From Microbacteriaceae bacterium (GTDB lineage: Bacteria > Actinomycetota > Actinomycetes > Actinomycetales > Microbacteriaceae): a DNA stretch of 64,000 nucleotides. The first letter of the stretch is position 1. Each line of letters begins with the position of its first letter. A program made the translations under genes and the position numbers. The notes under the pieces were generated by a model. That model made no database searches, was not told the DNA's origin, and saw nothing but the letters and a program-made list of their open reading frames with translations. The stretch spans positions 494,032-558,031 of the forward strand of contig JAIXWK010000002.1 in assembly GCA_027491295.1 (NCBI GenBank), read 5' to 3'. Below, in pieces: positions 1 to 11,071 of this stretch.

Positions 1-1241
1 GTGAGCGTCAGCTTGCACTGCTAAAAATCGCAGATGCCATTGAGGCTAGATCGGAAGAGATTGTTTCGGTTGAGTCGCGCGACACCGGAAAGCCTCTTGC
101 GGCAGTCAGGGGCGAAACCCGTGCAATTCTGAATCAGATCAGATTCTTCGCTGGAGCAGCCAGGAGCCTAGAGGGCAGAGCTGCCGGTGAGTATCTTCGG
201 AATCACACCTCTTTCATTCGCAGGGAGCCAATCGGCGTGGTTGGCCAAATCGCGCCTTGGAACTACCCGCTGGTAATGGCCACCTGGAAGTTCGCACCGG
301 CACTCGCGGCTGGAAACACGGTTGTTCTCAAGCCCAGCGATACCACCCCCGCCGTGACATTGCTACTTGCAGAGATCGCCTCTGAGTTCTTGCCGACTGG
401 CACATTCAATGTTGTTTTGGGAGACCGTTCTACCGGCCAAGCCTTGGTGGAGGATGCCATTCCACAGATGATTGCTATTACCGGTTCGGTCGGTGCGGGA
501 ATGCAGGTTGCCAAGACCGCTGCCTTAGACCTCAAGCGAGTTCACTTGGAACTCGGCGGCAAAGCCCCGGTAGTTATTTTTGAAGATGCCGACTTGGAGA
601 AAGCGGCAAACTCTCTGGTTGAAGCCGCTTTCTACAACGGTGGGCAAGACTGCACAGCGGCAACACGGTTCTTGGTGCATGAGTCGGTGGTTGCAGACTT
701 CACCGAGTTGTTTAAGTTGGCCATCAAGAAATCCGCCAAGGTCGGAACCCCTGAGAAAGACGGCATTCTTTTCGGTGCGATCAACAACGCGGCCCAACTC
801 GAAAGAGTCAGAGGTTTTGTCAACCGGCTCCCCGATCATGCTCGCTTGGAACTTGGCGGAGACGATCCAATTGGTAATGGTGGCTACTTCCACTCCGCCA
901 CCCTGCTCACCGGCCTGCGACAGACCGACGAACATATTCAAGATGAAATCTTTGGCCCAGTCGTTACCGTGCAGTCTTTCAAGGATGAGGCTCAAGCCCT
1001 GACCTTTGCCAATGATGTGAAGTACGGATTGGCCGCTTCGGTTTGGACCAAGGATCACGCTAGGGCGATGAGAATGTCAAAGCACTTGAGTTTTGGAGCG
1101 GTTTGGATCAACACCCATGGACCGCTGACCCCGGAGATGCCGCACGGTGGCTATCGTCACTCCGGCTACGGCAAGGATCTGTCAATGTACGGCTTTGAGG
1201 ATTACACCCGAATCAAGCACGTCATGTCCGCTATAGATTGA
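1..1241 (+). CDS. gamma-aminobutyraldehyde dehydrogenase-like aldehyde dehydrogenase (5' end outside window)
   Basis: NAD(P)-dependent oxidation of an aldehyde, probably an aminoaldehyde, to the acid. The frame is open from base 3, so the listed ORF start at 237 is internal and the true N-terminus lies outside the window. Visible landmarks are the nucleotide-binding stretch IAPWNYPL, the ELGGK segment with the general base Glu, the catalytic Cys in GGQDCTAATR, and the tail EMPHGG..SGYGKD..YGFEDYT. The GQDCTAA and SGYGKDxSxYGxEDYT signatures resemble E. coli PatD rather than generic ALDHs. The stop overlaps the convergent PLP decarboxylase by 11 bp. A role in putrescine/GABA-type catabolism is inferred; betaine aldehyde dehydrogenase is the main alternative. 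Confidence 0.9.
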   Translation, partial: ERQLALLKIADAIEARSEEIVSVESRDTGKPLAAVRGETRAILNQIRFFAGAARSLEGRAAGEYLRNHTSFIRREPIGVVGQIAPWNYPLVMATWKFAPALAAGNTVVLKPSDTTPAVTLLLAEIASEFLPTGTFNVVLGDRSTGQALVEDAIPQMIAITGSVGAGMQVAKTAALDLKRVHLELGGKAPVVIFEDADLEKAANSLVEAAFYNGGQDCTAATRFLVHESVVADFTELFKLAIKKSAKVGTPEKDGILFGAINNAAQLERVRGFVNRLPDHARLELGGDDPIGNGGYFHSATLLTGLRQTDEHIQDEIFGPVVTVQSFKDEAQALTFANDVKYGLAASVWTKDHARAMRMSKHLSFGAVWINTHGPLTPEMPHGGYRHSGYGKDLSMYGFEDYTRIKHVMSAID

Positions 1242-2637
1242 TGCTCTTCGCAACCTCTTCAAGCACTTCGAATAAATCGTCGACATCTTCACGTGTGGTG
1301 CGGAAGTTTGTGAAGCAGGGTCTCAACCAGGTTTCGCCATCGATTTGCGCCTCCGACAGGAAGAAGCGCCCGTCTTGAACTACGGCTTCGGTGAGCAACT
1401 GATTCAGTTTTGAAGTTTTTGCTGAATCTGCATGCTGCAGTTGGATTGGCACCACCGAGAGCTGTGGTCGGTTATCCAGCACTCTAAAGTTTCCCCTGCT
1501 GGATGCAATCGAGTAGCAGTACTGAGCTAGATCAAGGTTGCTCTCCAGTGCAGCCCTGAAGCCTTCTGCCCCAAAGGCGGCAAGCGCCATCCAAAGTTTT
1601 AGTGCACGCAAGGGTCGTGAATACTCCAGGGTGAGATCGACAGGATTTGCGGCCTGGGTGTCGTGCGGCATGTATGCCTCATCGTGACCAAACGTGCTCT
1701 GTAGGACTGAGAGGTCCTTCACCAAAAGCACGCTGCAAGCCTTGGGCACAAACATCCACTTATGGGCATCGATGGTTACCGAGTGCGCTCGGTCGATTCC
1801 GGCAAACAACGCTGCTCCGGTCAGGGTTCCAGCTGCCGGCGCACCATAGGCACCGTCCACGTGCAGCCAAACTCTAAACTCGTCTGCCAAGTCTGCAATC
1901 TGACTCATTGGATCGACCGCACCAGTCAATGTGGTGCCGGCGGTGGCGATGATTGCCATTGGCGTGAAGCCGGCTGCTAAGTCTTGCTGGATTTGAGCCC
2001 GCAGTAAGTCAGTCCTCATCCTTCTGTTGCCATCGACTCCAATGGCTCGCATTGAGTTTGAGCCAAGCCCTAAAAGCTCAACAGCCCTAGTGTTGGAGTA
2101 GTGGGACTCCACCGAGCAATACACAGTCAACTTCTTGGAGTTACCTAGCTTGCGGGCATCGGGATCAACTCGCTGTCTAGCGGCCGCAAGCGCGGTCAGG
2201 TTGCTAACGGTTCCGCCGCTGGTAAAGAGCCCTTCGGCGTCATGAAAACCAACGAATTGCCCCAGCCAGCGAGCGGTTTGCTGTTCTAGCAGCGAAGCTG
2301 CCTTGGAGTCGATGGCAAGGTTGAAGTCATAGGAAGCTGCCAGAAAATCGGCCACCGCTCCAATCTCCAAGCCCGAAGAGCCGATGTAGGCAAGGAAGCG
2401 CGGCCGGGACTGGGCAAGGGACTGGTCGAGAACCTTGGAGGCGACCTCCAGAGTGATTCTGTCTCCCCAACCGGTTTCGGGAAGCTGGGTGGATAACACC
2501 GATTTGGTTTCGGCTGTCAGTTCTGGCTCAGTTGGCCTAGGGTGATCAATTTCGGACCAGGTTTGGCTGATTCTGCGCTTGACATCATCTAGCAGTAACT
2601 CTCGAGCCCCATTGTTCAAGCGTTCTTCGAATCGCAT
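1231..2637 (-). CDS. PLP-dependent group II amino acid decarboxylase
   Basis: Decarboxylates an amino acid using pyridoxal phosphate; the fold is that of aromatic-amino-acid, glutamate and diaminobutyrate decarboxylases. At 468 aa it is of normal family length. SVESHYS (His about 179) stacks on PLP, HVDGAYG (Asp about 261) contacts the pyridine nitrogen, and DAHKW holds the Schiff-base Lys (about 293). The mobile loop FGHDEAYMPHD carries the expected Tyr. Substrate cannot be read from sequence; aromatic amino acids or 2,4-diaminobutyrate are possible. The ATG at 2637 is supported by a TAGACT -10 box 7 nt upstream, which suggests a leaderless mRNA. It converges on the aldehyde dehydrogenase, so the two are not one operon. 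Confidence 0.9.
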   Translation of the reverse strand: MRFEERLNNGARELLLDDVKRRISQTWSEIDHPRPTEPELTAETKSVLSTQLPETGWGDRITLEVASKVLDQSLAQSRPRFLAYIGSSGLEIGAVADFLAASYDFNLAIDSKAASLLEQQTARWLGQFVGFHDAEGLFTSGGTVSNLTALAAARQRVDPDARKLGNSKKLTVYCSVESHYSNTRAVELLGLGSNSMRAIGVDGNRRMRTDLLRAQIQQDLAAGFTPMAIIATAGTTLTGAVDPMSQIADLADEFRVWLHVDGAYGAPAAGTLTGAALFAGIDRAHSVTIDAHKWMFVPKACSVLLVKDLSVLQSTFGHDEAYMPHDTQAANPVDLTLEYSRPLRALKLWMALAAFGAEGFRAALESNLDLAQYCYSIASSRGNFRVLDNRPQLSVVPIQLQHADSAKTSKLNQLLTEAVVQDGRFFLSEAQIDGETWLRPCFTNFRTTREDVDDLFEVLEEVAKSINL

Positions 2638-2644
2638 ATTTGGA

Positions 2645-2650
2645 AGTCTA
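2645..2650 (-). promoter_or_regulatory. leaderless -10 box TAGACT for the PLP decarboxylase
   Basis: On the minus strand TAGACT lies 7 nt before the ATG and there is no Shine-Dalgarno sequence. This matches the actinobacterial TANNNT-N6/8-ATG layout of leaderless transcripts. No convincing -35 was identified. Confidence 0.5.
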
Positions 2651-2666
2651 TGTGAAGCCGACCAAA

Positions 2667-2688
2667 CACCGACCTATTCGACTCGGTG
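2667..2688 (-). terminator. possible weak terminator of the two-component operon
   Basis: Inverted repeat CACCGA-N10-TCGGTG, followed on the minus strand by a short T run, between the end of the sensor kinase gene and the start of the decarboxylase. The 6-bp stem and short T tract make it a weak candidate. Confidence 0.3.
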
Positions 2689-2705
2689 CCAAGCACGAGA
2701 AGCTG

Positions 2706-3971
2706 TCAGAAGTTCTCGGAGGTGCGAGGAAGGCTAATAGTAATGCGTGCTCCACCAAGGTCAGATGCCCCAAGTGCGACACTTCCGCGGTGGTTTTCTA
2801 CCACCTCGTAAATCATCGATAGCCCCAAGCCAGTGCTACCGGTCTTCTGGCTATCTCCCTTTCGAAAGCGAACCGGCTTGGCATCGTCGCCGAGGATTCC
2901 CTCTGGGAAACCAGGGCCACCATCTTCGAATGACAGCGTCACGGATTCAGCTTCCTGAGTAAGTCGAACTGCCACCTTGGAGCCACTTGAGACGTGAGCC
3001 TGAATATTGCCAATCAGGTTTGATAGCAGTCTTTCGATTTGCTCGGGGTTGCCTTGAATCAAAACCGAATTTGGGATTTCAATTTCCAGGACGTGACCGG
3101 AATCCAGGTTGGCTAGATCCTCTAGGGCCTCTTTGACTGCCACTGCGAGATCGATTGGGGTATCGAGCCTTGCCTCACTGCCCCGGATTTCGGCTAGCTG
3201 CAGCAGGTCGTCGATGATCCTCTGCATTCTTATCGACTGCTTGAGGGCTTTCTGTGCACTCAGCCTGACGTCCTCAGAGACATTGGGCTGAGACAGAATG
3301 TCTAAGTAACCGCGAACCACCGTCAAAGGGGTCTTGAGTTCGTGGGAGGCATCGGAGAGGAACTTCTGCAGAGCCTTCTCGTTGCCATCGAGCGATTGAA
3401 TCATTTTGGATAGCGAGTCGGTAAGGGTGTGGACCTCCCAGCTGCCCTGTGGATCCTTTAGCTTTCGCTCGCCACCGAGCGCGATGGTTCTTGCCTGACG
3501 AATGATTTGGTTCAGCGATGAGATGTCCCGCTTGAGTATCAGGTGGGTAACCAAAGTCGCAAGCAGGATTACGAGCAGGGTAATCAGGGCCAATGGGGCA
3601 ATTGTGGCTTGGGCTCCGGCGTAGGCGGCGTCGGTGGAGACGGCCAAGGTAATTGATTCGCTCTCCGCAAGAACCAGCTCTTGGGTCACCTGATTGCCGG
3701 CACCTATGAGGCCGGCATTTTCCTGGAGGTAGGTCTCAACACCAAACCCATCTTTGTAGAGCGCAGTTAGTTCGCGAGTGGAGCCCTCAAATAGCGCAGT
3801 GGAGACCGGGTCTTCGGAATCCAAAATCAATTGAGCAAGTTGGTCAAGACTCTGCTCGCTCTGTCTGATGTTTTGATCCAGGCTCATCAGTACCGAAACG
3901 CTGGAGACCGAAACTGAGGCTAGTCCGATCAGGATTCCAACCGATGCTGTGACCTTGGTTTGGAGTTTCAT
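2706..3971 (-). CDS. sensor histidine kinase
   Basis: Membrane sensor of a two-component system that phosphorylates the response regulator encoded just upstream. The 421-aa protein has a first membrane helix near residues 8-30, an extracellular sensor loop of about 90 residues, a second helix near 123-146, a HAMP-like linker, the HisKA dimerization helix with the phosphoacceptor His in DASHELKTPL, an N-box (LLSNLIGN), and ATP-lid glycine motifs EDGGPGF and TGLGLSM. Its start overlaps the regulator stop by 4 nt, so the two are translationally coupled. The sensed signal is unknown. The nearby secreted protein gene carries a PhoP-like box and is a plausible target. Confidence 0.93.
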   Translation of the reverse strand: MKLQTKVTASVGILIGLASVSVSSVSVLMSLDQNIRQSEQSLDQLAQLILDSEDPVSTALFEGSTRELTALYKDGFGVETYLQENAGLIGAGNQVTQELVLAESESITLAVSTDAAYAGAQATIAPLALITLLVILLATLVTHLILKRDISSLNQIIRQARTIALGGERKLKDPQGSWEVHTLTDSLSKMIQSLDGNEKALQKFLSDASHELKTPLTVVRGYLDILSQPNVSEDVRLSAQKALKQSIRMQRIIDDLLQLAEIRGSEARLDTPIDLAVAVKEALEDLANLDSGHVLEIEIPNSVLIQGNPEQIERLLSNLIGNIQAHVSSGSKVAVRLTQEAESVTLSFEDGGPGFPEGILGDDAKPVRFRKGDSQKTGSTGLGLSMIYEVVENHRGSVALGASDLGGARITISLPRTSENF

Positions 3972-4651
3972 TTGGCATCTTCAATCTTGAAGCCAAAGCC
4001 TCGAACGGTTTTTATGCCCTGGAATGATTCGGTGTGCAGCTTTTTTCTCAGGTATGAGATGTAGGTGTCGACCACATTGGTTTGATCCGCAAAGCCCATG
4101 CTCCAGATATCTTCCAGCAGCTGCTGCTTTGAGAGCACGTGCCCCTTCGATTCCATAAGGGCGACTAGGAGTTTGAATTCGGTGGGCGAGAGGGTGACCT
4201 CTTTGCCATCGAGCCTCACAACAAACTCGTTGACCTCAACCTCAATTGGACCAACAGTTAGAGTTTTGCCCTCTGGCTTGTGCCCACTTGCTCTGCGCAG
4301 GATGGCTGCGACCCTTAGGGCTAACTCCTCTATGCCAAATGGCTTGGCGATGAAATCATCTGCACCCAAGCGAAACCCGGTGCTCAGGTGAGGGCGGTCT
4401 TTGCTCGCGGTTAGCAATACAAATGGAGTGCTGTCGCCTTTGAGGCGCAAGCTCTCAAGGAGCTGGAAGCCATCGAGTTTCGGCATGTTGATGTCCGAAA
4501 CAATTAGGTCGACCGAATTGGAGCGAAGCAGATTTATGGCTTCCAGGCCATCACTTGCCGAAAGAGTTCGGTAGCCGGCCAGCGATAGCGCATCACCGAT
4601 CATCTCCCGAACCGGAGCTTCGTCATCGACAACAAGAATCAAACTGGACAC
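3968..4651 (-). CDS. OmpR/PhoB-family response regulator
   Basis: DNA-binding response regulator of 227 aa paired with the downstream kinase. The receiver domain shows the acidic pocket VVDDE, the phosphoacceptor Asp53 in VSDINMP, the conserved Thr in LLTAS and Lys in AKPF. The C-terminal winged helix contains LSPTEFKLL and the recognition region VVDTYISYLRKKL, and ends with the wing TVRGFGFK. The start is GTG at 4651, preceded by TAACAT 6 nt upstream, so the mRNA is probably leaderless. The C-terminal domain resembles mycobacterial PhoP, which agrees with the TCACA direct repeat in the divergent intergenic region. Autoregulation through that box is inferred. Confidence 0.93.
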   Translation of the reverse strand: MSSLILVVDDEAPVREMIGDALSLAGYRTLSASDGLEAINLLRSNSVDLIVSDINMPKLDGFQLLESLRLKGDSTPFVLLTASKDRPHLSTGFRLGADDFIAKPFGIEELALRVAAILRRASGHKPEGKTLTVGPIEVEVNEFVVRLDGKEVTLSPTEFKLLVALMESKGHVLSKQQLLEDIWSMGFADQTNVVDTYISYLRKKLHTESFQGIKTVRGFGFKIEDAK

Positions 4652-4657
4652 AGCTTC

Positions 4658-4663
4658 ATGTTA
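4658..4663 (-). promoter_or_regulatory. leaderless -10 box TAACAT for the response regulator
   Basis: TAACAT lies exactly 6 nt before the GTG start on the minus strand and no Shine-Dalgarno sequence is present, matching the leaderless layout seen before several other genes here. Confidence 0.5.
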
Positions 4664-4711
4664 GAGCGGCTTTGGACTCGGTTGGAATTCCACTAGCAAC
4701 CCAAGTGAATC

Positions 4712-4729
4712 TCACATGAAGTTCACACA
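4712..4729 (+). promoter_or_regulatory. PhoP-box-like direct repeat
   Basis: TCACATG-AAGT-TCACACA: two 7-bp direct repeats sharing TCACA, separated by 4 bp (11-bp period). This is the layout of the M. tuberculosis PhoP box (TCACAGC-N4-TCACAGC) and of operators bound by OmpR-family dimers. It lies in the 122-bp divergent region between the response regulator and the secreted protein gene, 45 bp upstream of the latter's ATG. Confidence 0.55.
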
Positions 4730-4773
4730 ATCGCTATCGAGACTTATCTCACTGGCTTAGAGAGAGATAGCAA

Positions 4774-5334
4774 ATGAAAGCAACAAATGCCAAGCAGGTC
4801 ATAGTTCTTCTGACCGCTTTGACCCTCGGATTCGTTGGAGCACCAGCTCAGGCTGCTGAACCAACCGTCACCGAAGCTGCTGGAGGCGCCGCAGCTGGCA
4901 ACTCCTCCAGCAGCAGCACCGTCGCACCTCGCGATGCCGCAGCTATTGCCGCATTCAGAGCCTCGATGGTTGACTTTAGGGCCGCCATGGTTACCTACCG
5001 CTCATCTATGGAGAACTTCAAGGTCCAGATTGAGGCCTATAAGCTCGCAATGGAAGAGATCAAGCCTGCACTTGTGGCATACAACACCGCAAGGAAAACC
5101 ATCGGACAGACCTTTGCCGCTTCGATGACCGTCTCTGCCACCGCCTACAAGGCTGTGCAGCAAAACCCAAGCGCCAGCCCTGAGGCCAAGCTTGCGGCAA
5201 AAACCACCTTTGAGGCAGCCAAGACTGCAGCTGTTACTGCCCGCCAGGCAGCAATCACTGCCCTTGGTGCCGCCCCTGTAAAGCCAGCGAAGCCGGAGAA
5301 ACCAACTATGCCAGTCAGGCCGGTTCGCCCATAA
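4774..5334 (+). CDS. secreted Ala-rich protein with aromatic-basic-Met heptad repeats
   Basis: I recognise no family. The 186-aa protein starts with a Sec signal peptide (basic start, hydrophobic 9-25, cleavage after AQA at about 27), then a Ser/Ala linker. From residue 61 a long helix follows a strict 7-residue pattern: F61, F68, Y75, F82, Y89, I96, Y103 and I110 at one position, with Met/Ile/Leu four residues later (M65, M72, M79, I86, M93, L100) and Lys/Arg after the aromatic in the first five units. The tail is Pro/Lys/Arg-rich (PAKPEKPTMPVRPVRP) and could contact the wall. It lies divergent to a two-component system, with a PhoP-like box upstream and a strong terminator downstream, so it is a single-gene unit. 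A coiled-coil or envelope-stress role is a guess. Confidence 0.8.
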   Translation: MKATNAKQVIVLLTALTLGFVGAPAQAAEPTVTEAAGGAAAGNSSSSSTVAPRDAAAIAAFRASMVDFRAAMVTYRSSMENFKVQIEAYKLAMEEIKPALVAYNTARKTIGQTFAASMTVSATAYKAVQQNPSASPEAKLAAKTTFEAAKTAAVTARQAAITALGAAPVKPAKPEKPTMPVRPVRP

Positions 5335-5358
5335 CCCTTCCTCCTTTTGGGTTAGGAA

Positions 5359-5392
5359 AGATCCCCCGTGTGATGCGGGGGATCTTTTTTTT
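5359..5392 (+). terminator. intrinsic terminator
   Basis: Perfect 10-bp stem AGATCCCCCG / CGGGGGATCT with a 7-nt loop followed by eight T residues. It ends the secreted protein transcript and insulates the S10 operon. Confidence 0.93.
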
Positions 5393-9954: not shown

Positions 9955-10374
9955 ATGCTGATTCCTCGCAAAGTAAAGCACCGCAAGCAGCACAGCCCGA
10001 AGCGCTCCGGTCACGCGACCGGTGGCACCAAGGTGTCGTTCGGTGAGTACGGTATCCAGGCACTAACCCCTGCTTACCTGACTAACCGTCAGATCGAAGC
10101 TGCTCGTATTGCTATGACTCGTCACATCAAGCGTGGTGGAAAGGTTTGGATCAACGTATTCCCAGACCGTTCGCTAACCAAGAAGCCAGCGGAAACCCGC
10201 ATGGGTTCCGGTAAGGGTTCACCGGAGTGGTGGGTAGTAAACGTAAAGCCAGGCCGCGTGCTCTTTGAGCTAGCCGGCGTATCCGAGGAAATTGCTCGTG
10301 AAGCAATGACCCGTGCGATCCACAAGCTTCCGCTGAAGGCTCGCATCATCAAGCGTGAAGAAGGTGACGCATAA
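9955..10374 (+). CDS. rplP: 50S ribosomal protein L16
   Basis: Large-subunit protein that organises the A-site tRNA elbow region (139 aa). [20 protein letters not shown] at the start, the block [16 protein letters not shown] and [18 protein letters not shown] are diagnostic. The stop overlaps the rpmC ATG by one base (TAATG). Confidence 0.98.
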
Positions 10375-10676
10375 TGATCGGTTCAAAGAACCTCACCCCT
10401 GAGGACCTAGACAAGGTCGAAGACTCCCTGCTAGTTGAGGAACTGCGCAAGGCGAAGGAAGAACTATTCAACCTACGCTTTCAGTCCGCAACCGGACAGC
10501 TGGATGCTCACGGTCGTCTAAAGGCCGTCAAGCGTGACATCGCACGTATTTACACCGTGCTGCGTGAGCGTGAGCTCGGCATTCGTGCCGTGCCAGTCGC
10601 TGCCCCAGCACCTAAGACCACTAAGAAGGCAGCGGCTGAGAAGCCAGTTGCTGAGAAGCCTGCCGAGGAGGCATAA
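10374..10676 (+). CDS. rpmC: 50S ribosomal protein L29 with C-terminal extension
   Basis: Exit-tunnel rim protein near L23. The core helical hairpin spans about residues 1-73 ([18 protein letters not shown], then [16 protein letters not shown]). The last ~27 residues are an Ala/Lys/Pro/Glu-rich tail ([22 protein letters not shown]), making the protein 100 aa against about 65-80 in most bacteria. The next gene, rpsQ, begins with a similar low-complexity tail, so the junction carries two facing extensions. Confidence 0.97.
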
Positions 10677-10678
10677 AG

Positions 10679-11071
10679 ATGGCCGACGAGACCAAGCCAG
10701 CAGCTAAGGCTGCACCAAAGGCCGCTGCCAAGGCAGCTCCAAAAGCAGCTCCAAAGGCAGCCGCACCTAAGGCTGCAAAGCCAAAGGTTGCAAAGGCTCC
10801 TAAGGAGATCAAGGAAGTCGAGCGCGGTTACCGCAAGTCACGTCGTGGCTATGTTGTCTCCGACAAGATGGACAAGACCATCGTTGTAATGGTTGAAGAC
10901 CGCAAGAAGCACCCGCTATACGGAAAAGTTATGCGCGTGTCGACCAAGGTCAAGGCTCACGACGAGAACAACACTGCAGGTATCGGCGACCTCGTGCTAA
11001 TCAGCGAGACCCGTCCACTATCTGCCACCAAGAACTGGCGCCTAGTCGAGATCCTCGAGAAGGCCAAGTAA
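10679..11071 (+). CDS. rpsQ: 30S ribosomal protein S17 with N-terminal extension
   Basis: 16S rRNA-binding OB-fold protein. The family core begins near residue 48 ([19 protein letters not shown]) and includes [24 protein letters not shown] and [16 protein letters not shown]. The first ~45 residues are a repetitive APKAAAK-type extension, giving 130 aa instead of about 85. The ATG at 10679, 2 nt after rpmC, is the only sensible coupled start. A 55-nt gap separates it from rplN. Confidence 0.96.

Follow-up and report, generated by a model that had tools for sequence, protein, structure and literature searches.

A secreted heptad-repeat protein divergent from an OmpR/PhoB-type two-component system in a Microbacteriaceae genome, and its relatives in streamlined actinobacteria

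The window, meaning the whole stretch of 64,000 nucleotides analysed here, was taken from a 1.45-Mb Microbacteriaceae genome (assembly GCA_027491295.1, contig JAIXWK010000002.1, positions 494,032 to 558,031). As the initial annotation had stated, a gene for a secreted protein lies divergent from a response regulator and sensor kinase pair, and the gap between this gene and the regulator gene is 122 bp. The features of the locus are as follows.

2706-3971, minus strand: sensor histidine kinase, 421 aa, with two membrane helices, a Cys-free extracytoplasmic sensor of about 95 aa, HisKA and HATPase_c (Pfam)
3968-4651, minus strand: OmpR/PhoB-family response regulator, 227 aa (Pfam Response_reg and Trans_reg_C)
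4711-4727, plus strand: predicted regulator box, CTCACA (4711-4716), N5, TTCACA (4722-4727), with an 11-bp period, CTCACATGAAGTTCACA; invariant in three genus genomes
4739-4744, plus strand: predicted -10 hexamer GAGACT, 11 bp past the box (promoter alignment)
4751, plus strand: predicted transcription start, the A of a conserved CA (inferred from the promoter alignment)
4760-4766, plus strand: ribosome-binding site GAGAGAG (direct reading)
4774-5334, plus strand: secreted heptad coiled-coil protein, 186 aa (ORF reading; purifying selection)
4774-4854, plus strand: signal peptide, cleavage likely after AQA (residue 27) (direct reading; kept in four genomes)
4945-5115, plus strand: heptad helix, residues 58-114, with F/Y/I at d, M/I/L at a and R/K at e
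5176-5265, plus strand: second helix (residues 135-164), Ala-rich and better conserved across the wider family than any other part
5275-5331, plus strand: Pro/Lys/Arg tail PVKPAKPEKPTMPVRPVRP, no regular structure predicted (a KP-rich tail is found in most relatives)
5355-5392, plus strand: intrinsic terminator, a 15-bp hairpin and T-run

Rereading confirmed the secreted protein as first described in its coordinates, its length, its signal peptide and its residue numbering. The gene also has the terminator of its own that had been ascribed to it; the hairpin and T-run are strong (-31.3 kcal/mol for a 71-nt segment, z -4.9), and the gene that follows is rpsJ. The heptad recurrence is real. Eight [FYI] residues in phase at a spacing of 7 were never reached in 200,000 shuffles of the mature sequence, the largest number being 6, and a hydrophobic run of 14 alternating a/d positions did not arise in any of 40,000 shuffles. 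In this register, F61, F68, Y75, F82, Y89, I96, Y103 and I110 occupy the d positions, M65, M72, M79, I86, M93 and L100 the a positions, and Arg or Lys the e positions. Met, Ile or Leu had been said to follow each d residue by four; this holds for six of the eight, but the last two are followed by R107 and F114. The notion of separate aromatic and Met faces was mistaken, since the register is that of an ordinary coiled coil, in which the aromatic residues at d and the Met residues at a belong to a single seam. Among own-genus orthologues, dN of the heptad segment was 0-0.025 vs dS of 0.16-0.61, by which measure the segment is under strong purifying selection in the genus.

A structure prediction of the monomer had been suggested as a check. 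The AlphaFold model, made from four near-identical sequences and hence of limited depth, had a mean pLDDT of 81 and consisted of a helix at about residues 51-129, a turn and a helix at about residues 135-164, with irregular ends; the long helix that had been expected was thus borne out by the model. The fold search against solved structures returned nothing significant (best E 0.89, helical look-alikes only), and the PDB sequence search with the secreted protein likewise gave only non-significant helical look-alikes. The structure prediction of the kinase sensor reached a pLDDT of 41 and was left unused.

Orthologues of the secreted protein (89-99% identity) were found in 4 of 23 genus genomes, the window's genome included. 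They are located before rpsJ and, wherever the contig reaches, beside the same regulator; one contig ends at the gene. At E <= 1e-60, the window regulator was found only in genus genomes with the secreted gene. The site was also examined in 13 further genomes of the genus; there, tuf, followed in some of them by another gene, stands before rpsJ and the block is absent. In the genomes with the secreted gene, tuf is missing from this place, and rpsJ is preceded by the three-gene module and by genes for an aldehyde dehydrogenase and a PLP decarboxylase (237-5334 in the window). These two enzyme genes, aminobutyraldehyde-dehydrogenase-like and diaminobutyrate-decarboxylase-like, respectively, are convergent (237-2637). 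Further along the window, at 10374-11071, two ribosomal proteins carry extensions: an Ala/Lys-rich one at the C-terminus of uL29, and an Ala/Lys/Pro-rich one of about 45 aa at the N-terminus of uS17.

When 300 genomes of the family and 397 of the phylum were searched broadly with HMMs, everything returned beyond the known copies was judged by eye to be a chance match. The secreted protein was not found in the phages, plasmids and viral contigs searched, and a search for the heptad DNA pattern returned the known copies and chance matches only. Since the protein appeared from the broad searches to be an orphan, a targeted search was carried out in a streamlined group located via actinorhodopsin. 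This group, labelled f98, is a family of complete 1.2-1.5-Mb genomes from the same class, which we infer to be acI/Nanopelagicaceae, tiny freshwater actinobacteria, judging by the genome size, the actinorhodopsin and how many of the genomes are closed. Relatives of the secreted protein were present in 53 of 121 f98 genomes at E <= 1, the best at 1.9e-13. They share a signal peptide, aromatic heptads, an Ala-rich helix that closes with [IL]xALG, and a tail rich in KP, all of which the window protein also has. In 48 family members, the count of aromatic pairs seven residues apart was 241 where 30 were expected; spacings of 11, 14, 18 and 25 also gave peaks. The relatives differ in the number and length of their helices. 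The Met core is limited to the window clade; in the relatives the aromatic heptads persist, but Ala, Leu or Val stands where the window clade has Met, and the Met core is therefore not essential to the function of the family. Met-based copper binding was considered and rejected, the Met residues being replaced in the relatives.

The initial annotation had recognised no family for the protein, and indeed no Pfam, NCBIfam or PHROG model covers this one; the few weak matches in these collections each involved one member and a low-complexity model of no relation to it. The open-access literature searched yielded no description of either the family or its box. As far as this search goes, the family is undescribed; the overall arrangement, in which a secreted output gene diverges from its two-component system, is of a known kind. 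One f98 region (L136:5482-8426) holds three tandem family copies of 336, 314 and 300 aa with no regulator nearby.

For the analysis of linkage, 40 regions and then 19 further ones were picked only by the presence of a relative of the secreted protein. In 31 of the first 40, this relative was divergent from and adjoining an OmpR-type regulator, nearly always with the kinase next to it, and the same arrangement was found in 11 of the further 19. The orientation was identical in all 42 linked regions. At least one divergent module was present in 42 of the 44 sampled genomes, and the two exceptions were represented by short or cut contigs or by solo copies only. The check whether homologues always lie beside an OmpR-family regulator thus came out positive for most genomes but not for every copy, as 17 of the 59 regions were unlinked; most of these hold extra copies from genomes that also contain a linked one. 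This linkage, together with a conserved regulator-type box placed for activation, lends strong support to the proposal that the two-component system has the secreted protein as its output.

That box was present upstream of the gene in 5 of the 17 unlinked f98 regions as well (L140, L157, L163, L189 and L192). Boxes were also observed upstream of other short secreted Ala-rich proteins (L169:1521-1976, L171:1035-1445, L172:1600-1965 and L182:1055-1420). From the distribution of the box, several exported helical proteins of f98 may make up a small regulon. In two genomes (L176:1590-3020 and L179:1590-3020; TTTCACAGCATCTTCACA), a box lies upstream of a gene for a larger secreted protein, 476 aa or more in length, a possible second target.

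The divergent pair in the window comprises a receiver and winged-helix regulator adjoining a HisKA/HATPase kinase, the composition of an OmpR/PhoB-type two-component system (kinase Pfam matches: HisKA 7.8e-17, HATPase_c 1e-16). The kinase aligned over its full length, sensor included, with the kinases beside the relatives of the secreted protein. By phmmer, the window regulator showed 45-54% identity and 220-257 bits to the module regulators of f98, compared with at most 120 bits to a Microbacteriaceae comparison set, which consisted of the available regulators beside the best kinase matches. In the regulator tree, the window regulator fell among the module regulators and was split from the comparison set with an SH-aLRT of 99; finer placement was not supported. 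Because the regulator is closer to the f98 module regulators than to the Microbacteriaceae comparison set, its sequence fits a horizontal acquisition of the module by the window clade, to which inheritance with many losses is the alternative.

The divergent intergenic regions, 31 from f98 and that of the window, were scored for two CACA words 11 bp apart. The tandem TCACA-N6-TCACA box was found in 26 of these 32 regions vs 0.21 expected from dinucleotide shuffles, and only the 11-bp period was enriched. Most of the other regions have a one-base variant or were sampled too short. When 28 promoters were aligned on the box, A at +12 occurred in 28 and T at +16 in 27, followed by C at +22 in 22 and A at +23 in 24, and the distance from the box to the -10 element was fixed. 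Within the genus, the window stretch from the box through A4751 is almost invariant. A pattern search of the window's own genome returned the strict box once, at the promoter of the secreted gene; the reversed-pattern control also gave one match, and the single occurrence therefore proves little by itself. In five f98 regions (L133, L146, L153, L158 and L162) the predicted start is at, or within one base of, an ATG, suggesting leaderless messages from some of these promoters.

The target promoter thus carries a tandem direct repeat with a period of about 11 bp, the operator type of the OmpR/PhoB regulators, and as predicted from the alignment the box-to--10 geometry is that of a PhoB/OmpR-activated promoter. 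At the pho-box promoters of Escherichia coli PhoB, a pair of 11-bp repeats lies immediately before the -10 and serves instead of a -35 element. The window box shares these repeats in place of the -35, but its half-site is TCACA where that of PhoB is TGTCA; no phosphate genes were seen beside the module. The box and the regulator also resemble those of Mycobacterium tuberculosis PhoP, which binds TCACAGC repeats with a 4-bp spacer and hence an 11-bp period, and which reads bases through Asn212, Val213, Glu215, Ser216, Tyr217 and Tyr220 (PMC4832192). The nearest solved structures to the window regulator were M. tuberculosis PrrA (160 bits) and PhoP (155 bits). Its recognition helix, NVVDTYISYL, is near-identical to that of PhoP and carries N, V, D, T, Y and Y at the six base-reading positions, of which four are identical and two are conservative changes (Glu to Asp and Ser to Thr); at the first position, Asn in the window, most f98 regulators have Ser, Thr or Gly. 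The window thus combines PhoP-type base-reading residues in helix alpha-8 with tandem TCACA half-sites. Since both the residues and the box resemble those of PhoP, the prediction that the window regulator reads the TCACA box is well supported. Unlike for M. tuberculosis PhoP, the sole strict target found in the window genome is the gene of a secreted coiled-coil protein.

With moderate confidence, we propose that the secreted ORF is the dedicated output of a three-gene module and that its product is an exported, self-associating wall or surface rod that strengthens the envelope. An extracytoplasmic signal would activate the kinase, which would then phosphorylate the regulator. Two regulator molecules would bind the TCACA-N6-TCACA box in tandem. 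The box, 11 bp ahead of a poor -10, would stand in for the -35 element, and the bound regulator would recruit RNA polymerase to the secreted gene. The protein would be exported by Sec and trimmed after AQA. The mature protein is predicted to have a flexible Ser/Gly linker, then a long rod over residues 51-129 whose coiled-coil seam is made of aromatic and Met residues, a short Ala-rich helix folded back, and finally a cationic Pro/Lys tail, which from its composition may bind the wall. Outside the membrane, the rod would associate with itself at the wall or surface and reinforce or shield the envelope under the stress sensed by the kinase. The gene order, the box, the spacing of the -10, the periodicity across the family and the conservation are direct sequence observations, on which the proposed activation, phosphorelay, oligomerisation, wall binding and envelope role are built.

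As the main rival reading, the protein would be a chaperone of the periplasm that also exerts feedback inhibition, like CpxP, Spy or ZraP. Once induced by the regulator, it would bind to the sensor of the kinase and so damp signalling, and misfolded envelope proteins would titrate it off. In CpxP-CpxRA, as in the Spy and ZraP-ZraSR systems, a small, helical, exported protein is encoded beside or divergent from an envelope-sensing two-component system that induces it; cpxP itself is divergent from cpxRA (review PMC6737893), and the secreted family has this same divergence from a kinase-regulator operon. ZraP even appeared in the fold list, but at rank 45 with a non-significant E of 4.8. The LTXXQ model of Pfam, however, was matched by none of 27 members, and the family has no sequence similarity to these chaperones, from which it also differs in its long heptad rod and KP tail. 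CpxP, Spy and ZraP are Gram-negative proteins, whereas the window family occurs in Gram-positive actinobacteria and often as several paralogues; the several unlinked copies in many genomes suit an output better than a dedicated inhibitor. Co-variation of the secreted protein with the sensor, a test of low power, gave a rank correlation of 0.17, or 0.08 with the regulator removed, which does not exceed the background. We consider such a chaperone unlikely.

It is quite unlikely, in our estimate, that the protein forms no polymer and that its amphipathic helices instead cover the membrane or attach to an external ligand such as a lipid, a phage or an antimicrobial peptide. The amphipathic helix with its aromatic/Met seam and Arg/Lys flank would suit this, as would the differences in helix number and length among relatives, but the a/d seam is narrow and coiled-coil-like and the hydrophobic moment is modest (0.22-0.24). 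A global regulator that merely neighbours a hitch-hiking low-complexity Ala/Lys protein would account for the Ala-rich composition and for the relatives with no regulator nearby. This appears highly improbable given the common orientation of all the linked regions, the invariant box-to--10 spacing, the purifying selection on the heptads and, subject to its control, the single strict box in the window's own genome. Streptomyces CutRS/CssRS offers a further comparison, as an actinobacterial two-component control of extracytoplasmic quality control; CutR binds TAWATAAA, CutS needs two cysteines, and the rare genomes without a kinase having at least two sensor cysteines are largely Nanopelagicales (PMC12802291). 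The window module differs in its TCACA repeats and its Cys-free sensor. Cys is absent from all 32 linked secreted proteins and from all sensors checked, and CutS-like disulphide sensing is therefore unlikely.

Returning to the envelope-strengthening rod, a bolder version of it, possible but doubtful, is that the two-component system, dedicated to this task, deploys a rapidly diversifying family of secreted coiled-coil rods, which would assemble by themselves into an inducible layer outside the cell, in f98 and in the one Microbacteriaceae clade that acquired the module. If true, this would be a regulated envelope armour of a sort not described before.

The present case indicates that what appears in broad searches to be a genus-restricted orphan may have a large family one order away. 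Streamlined genomes retain few regulators. Should the host group be acI/Nanopelagicaceae as supposed, a bacterial group that is among the commonest in lakes retains a full sensor-regulator-effector module, often with extra effector copies. The predicted operator, -10 element and start make the target of the regulator directly testable without host genetics, and the protein family provides an entry point to the cell envelope of these bacteria and to their stress biology, about which little is known.
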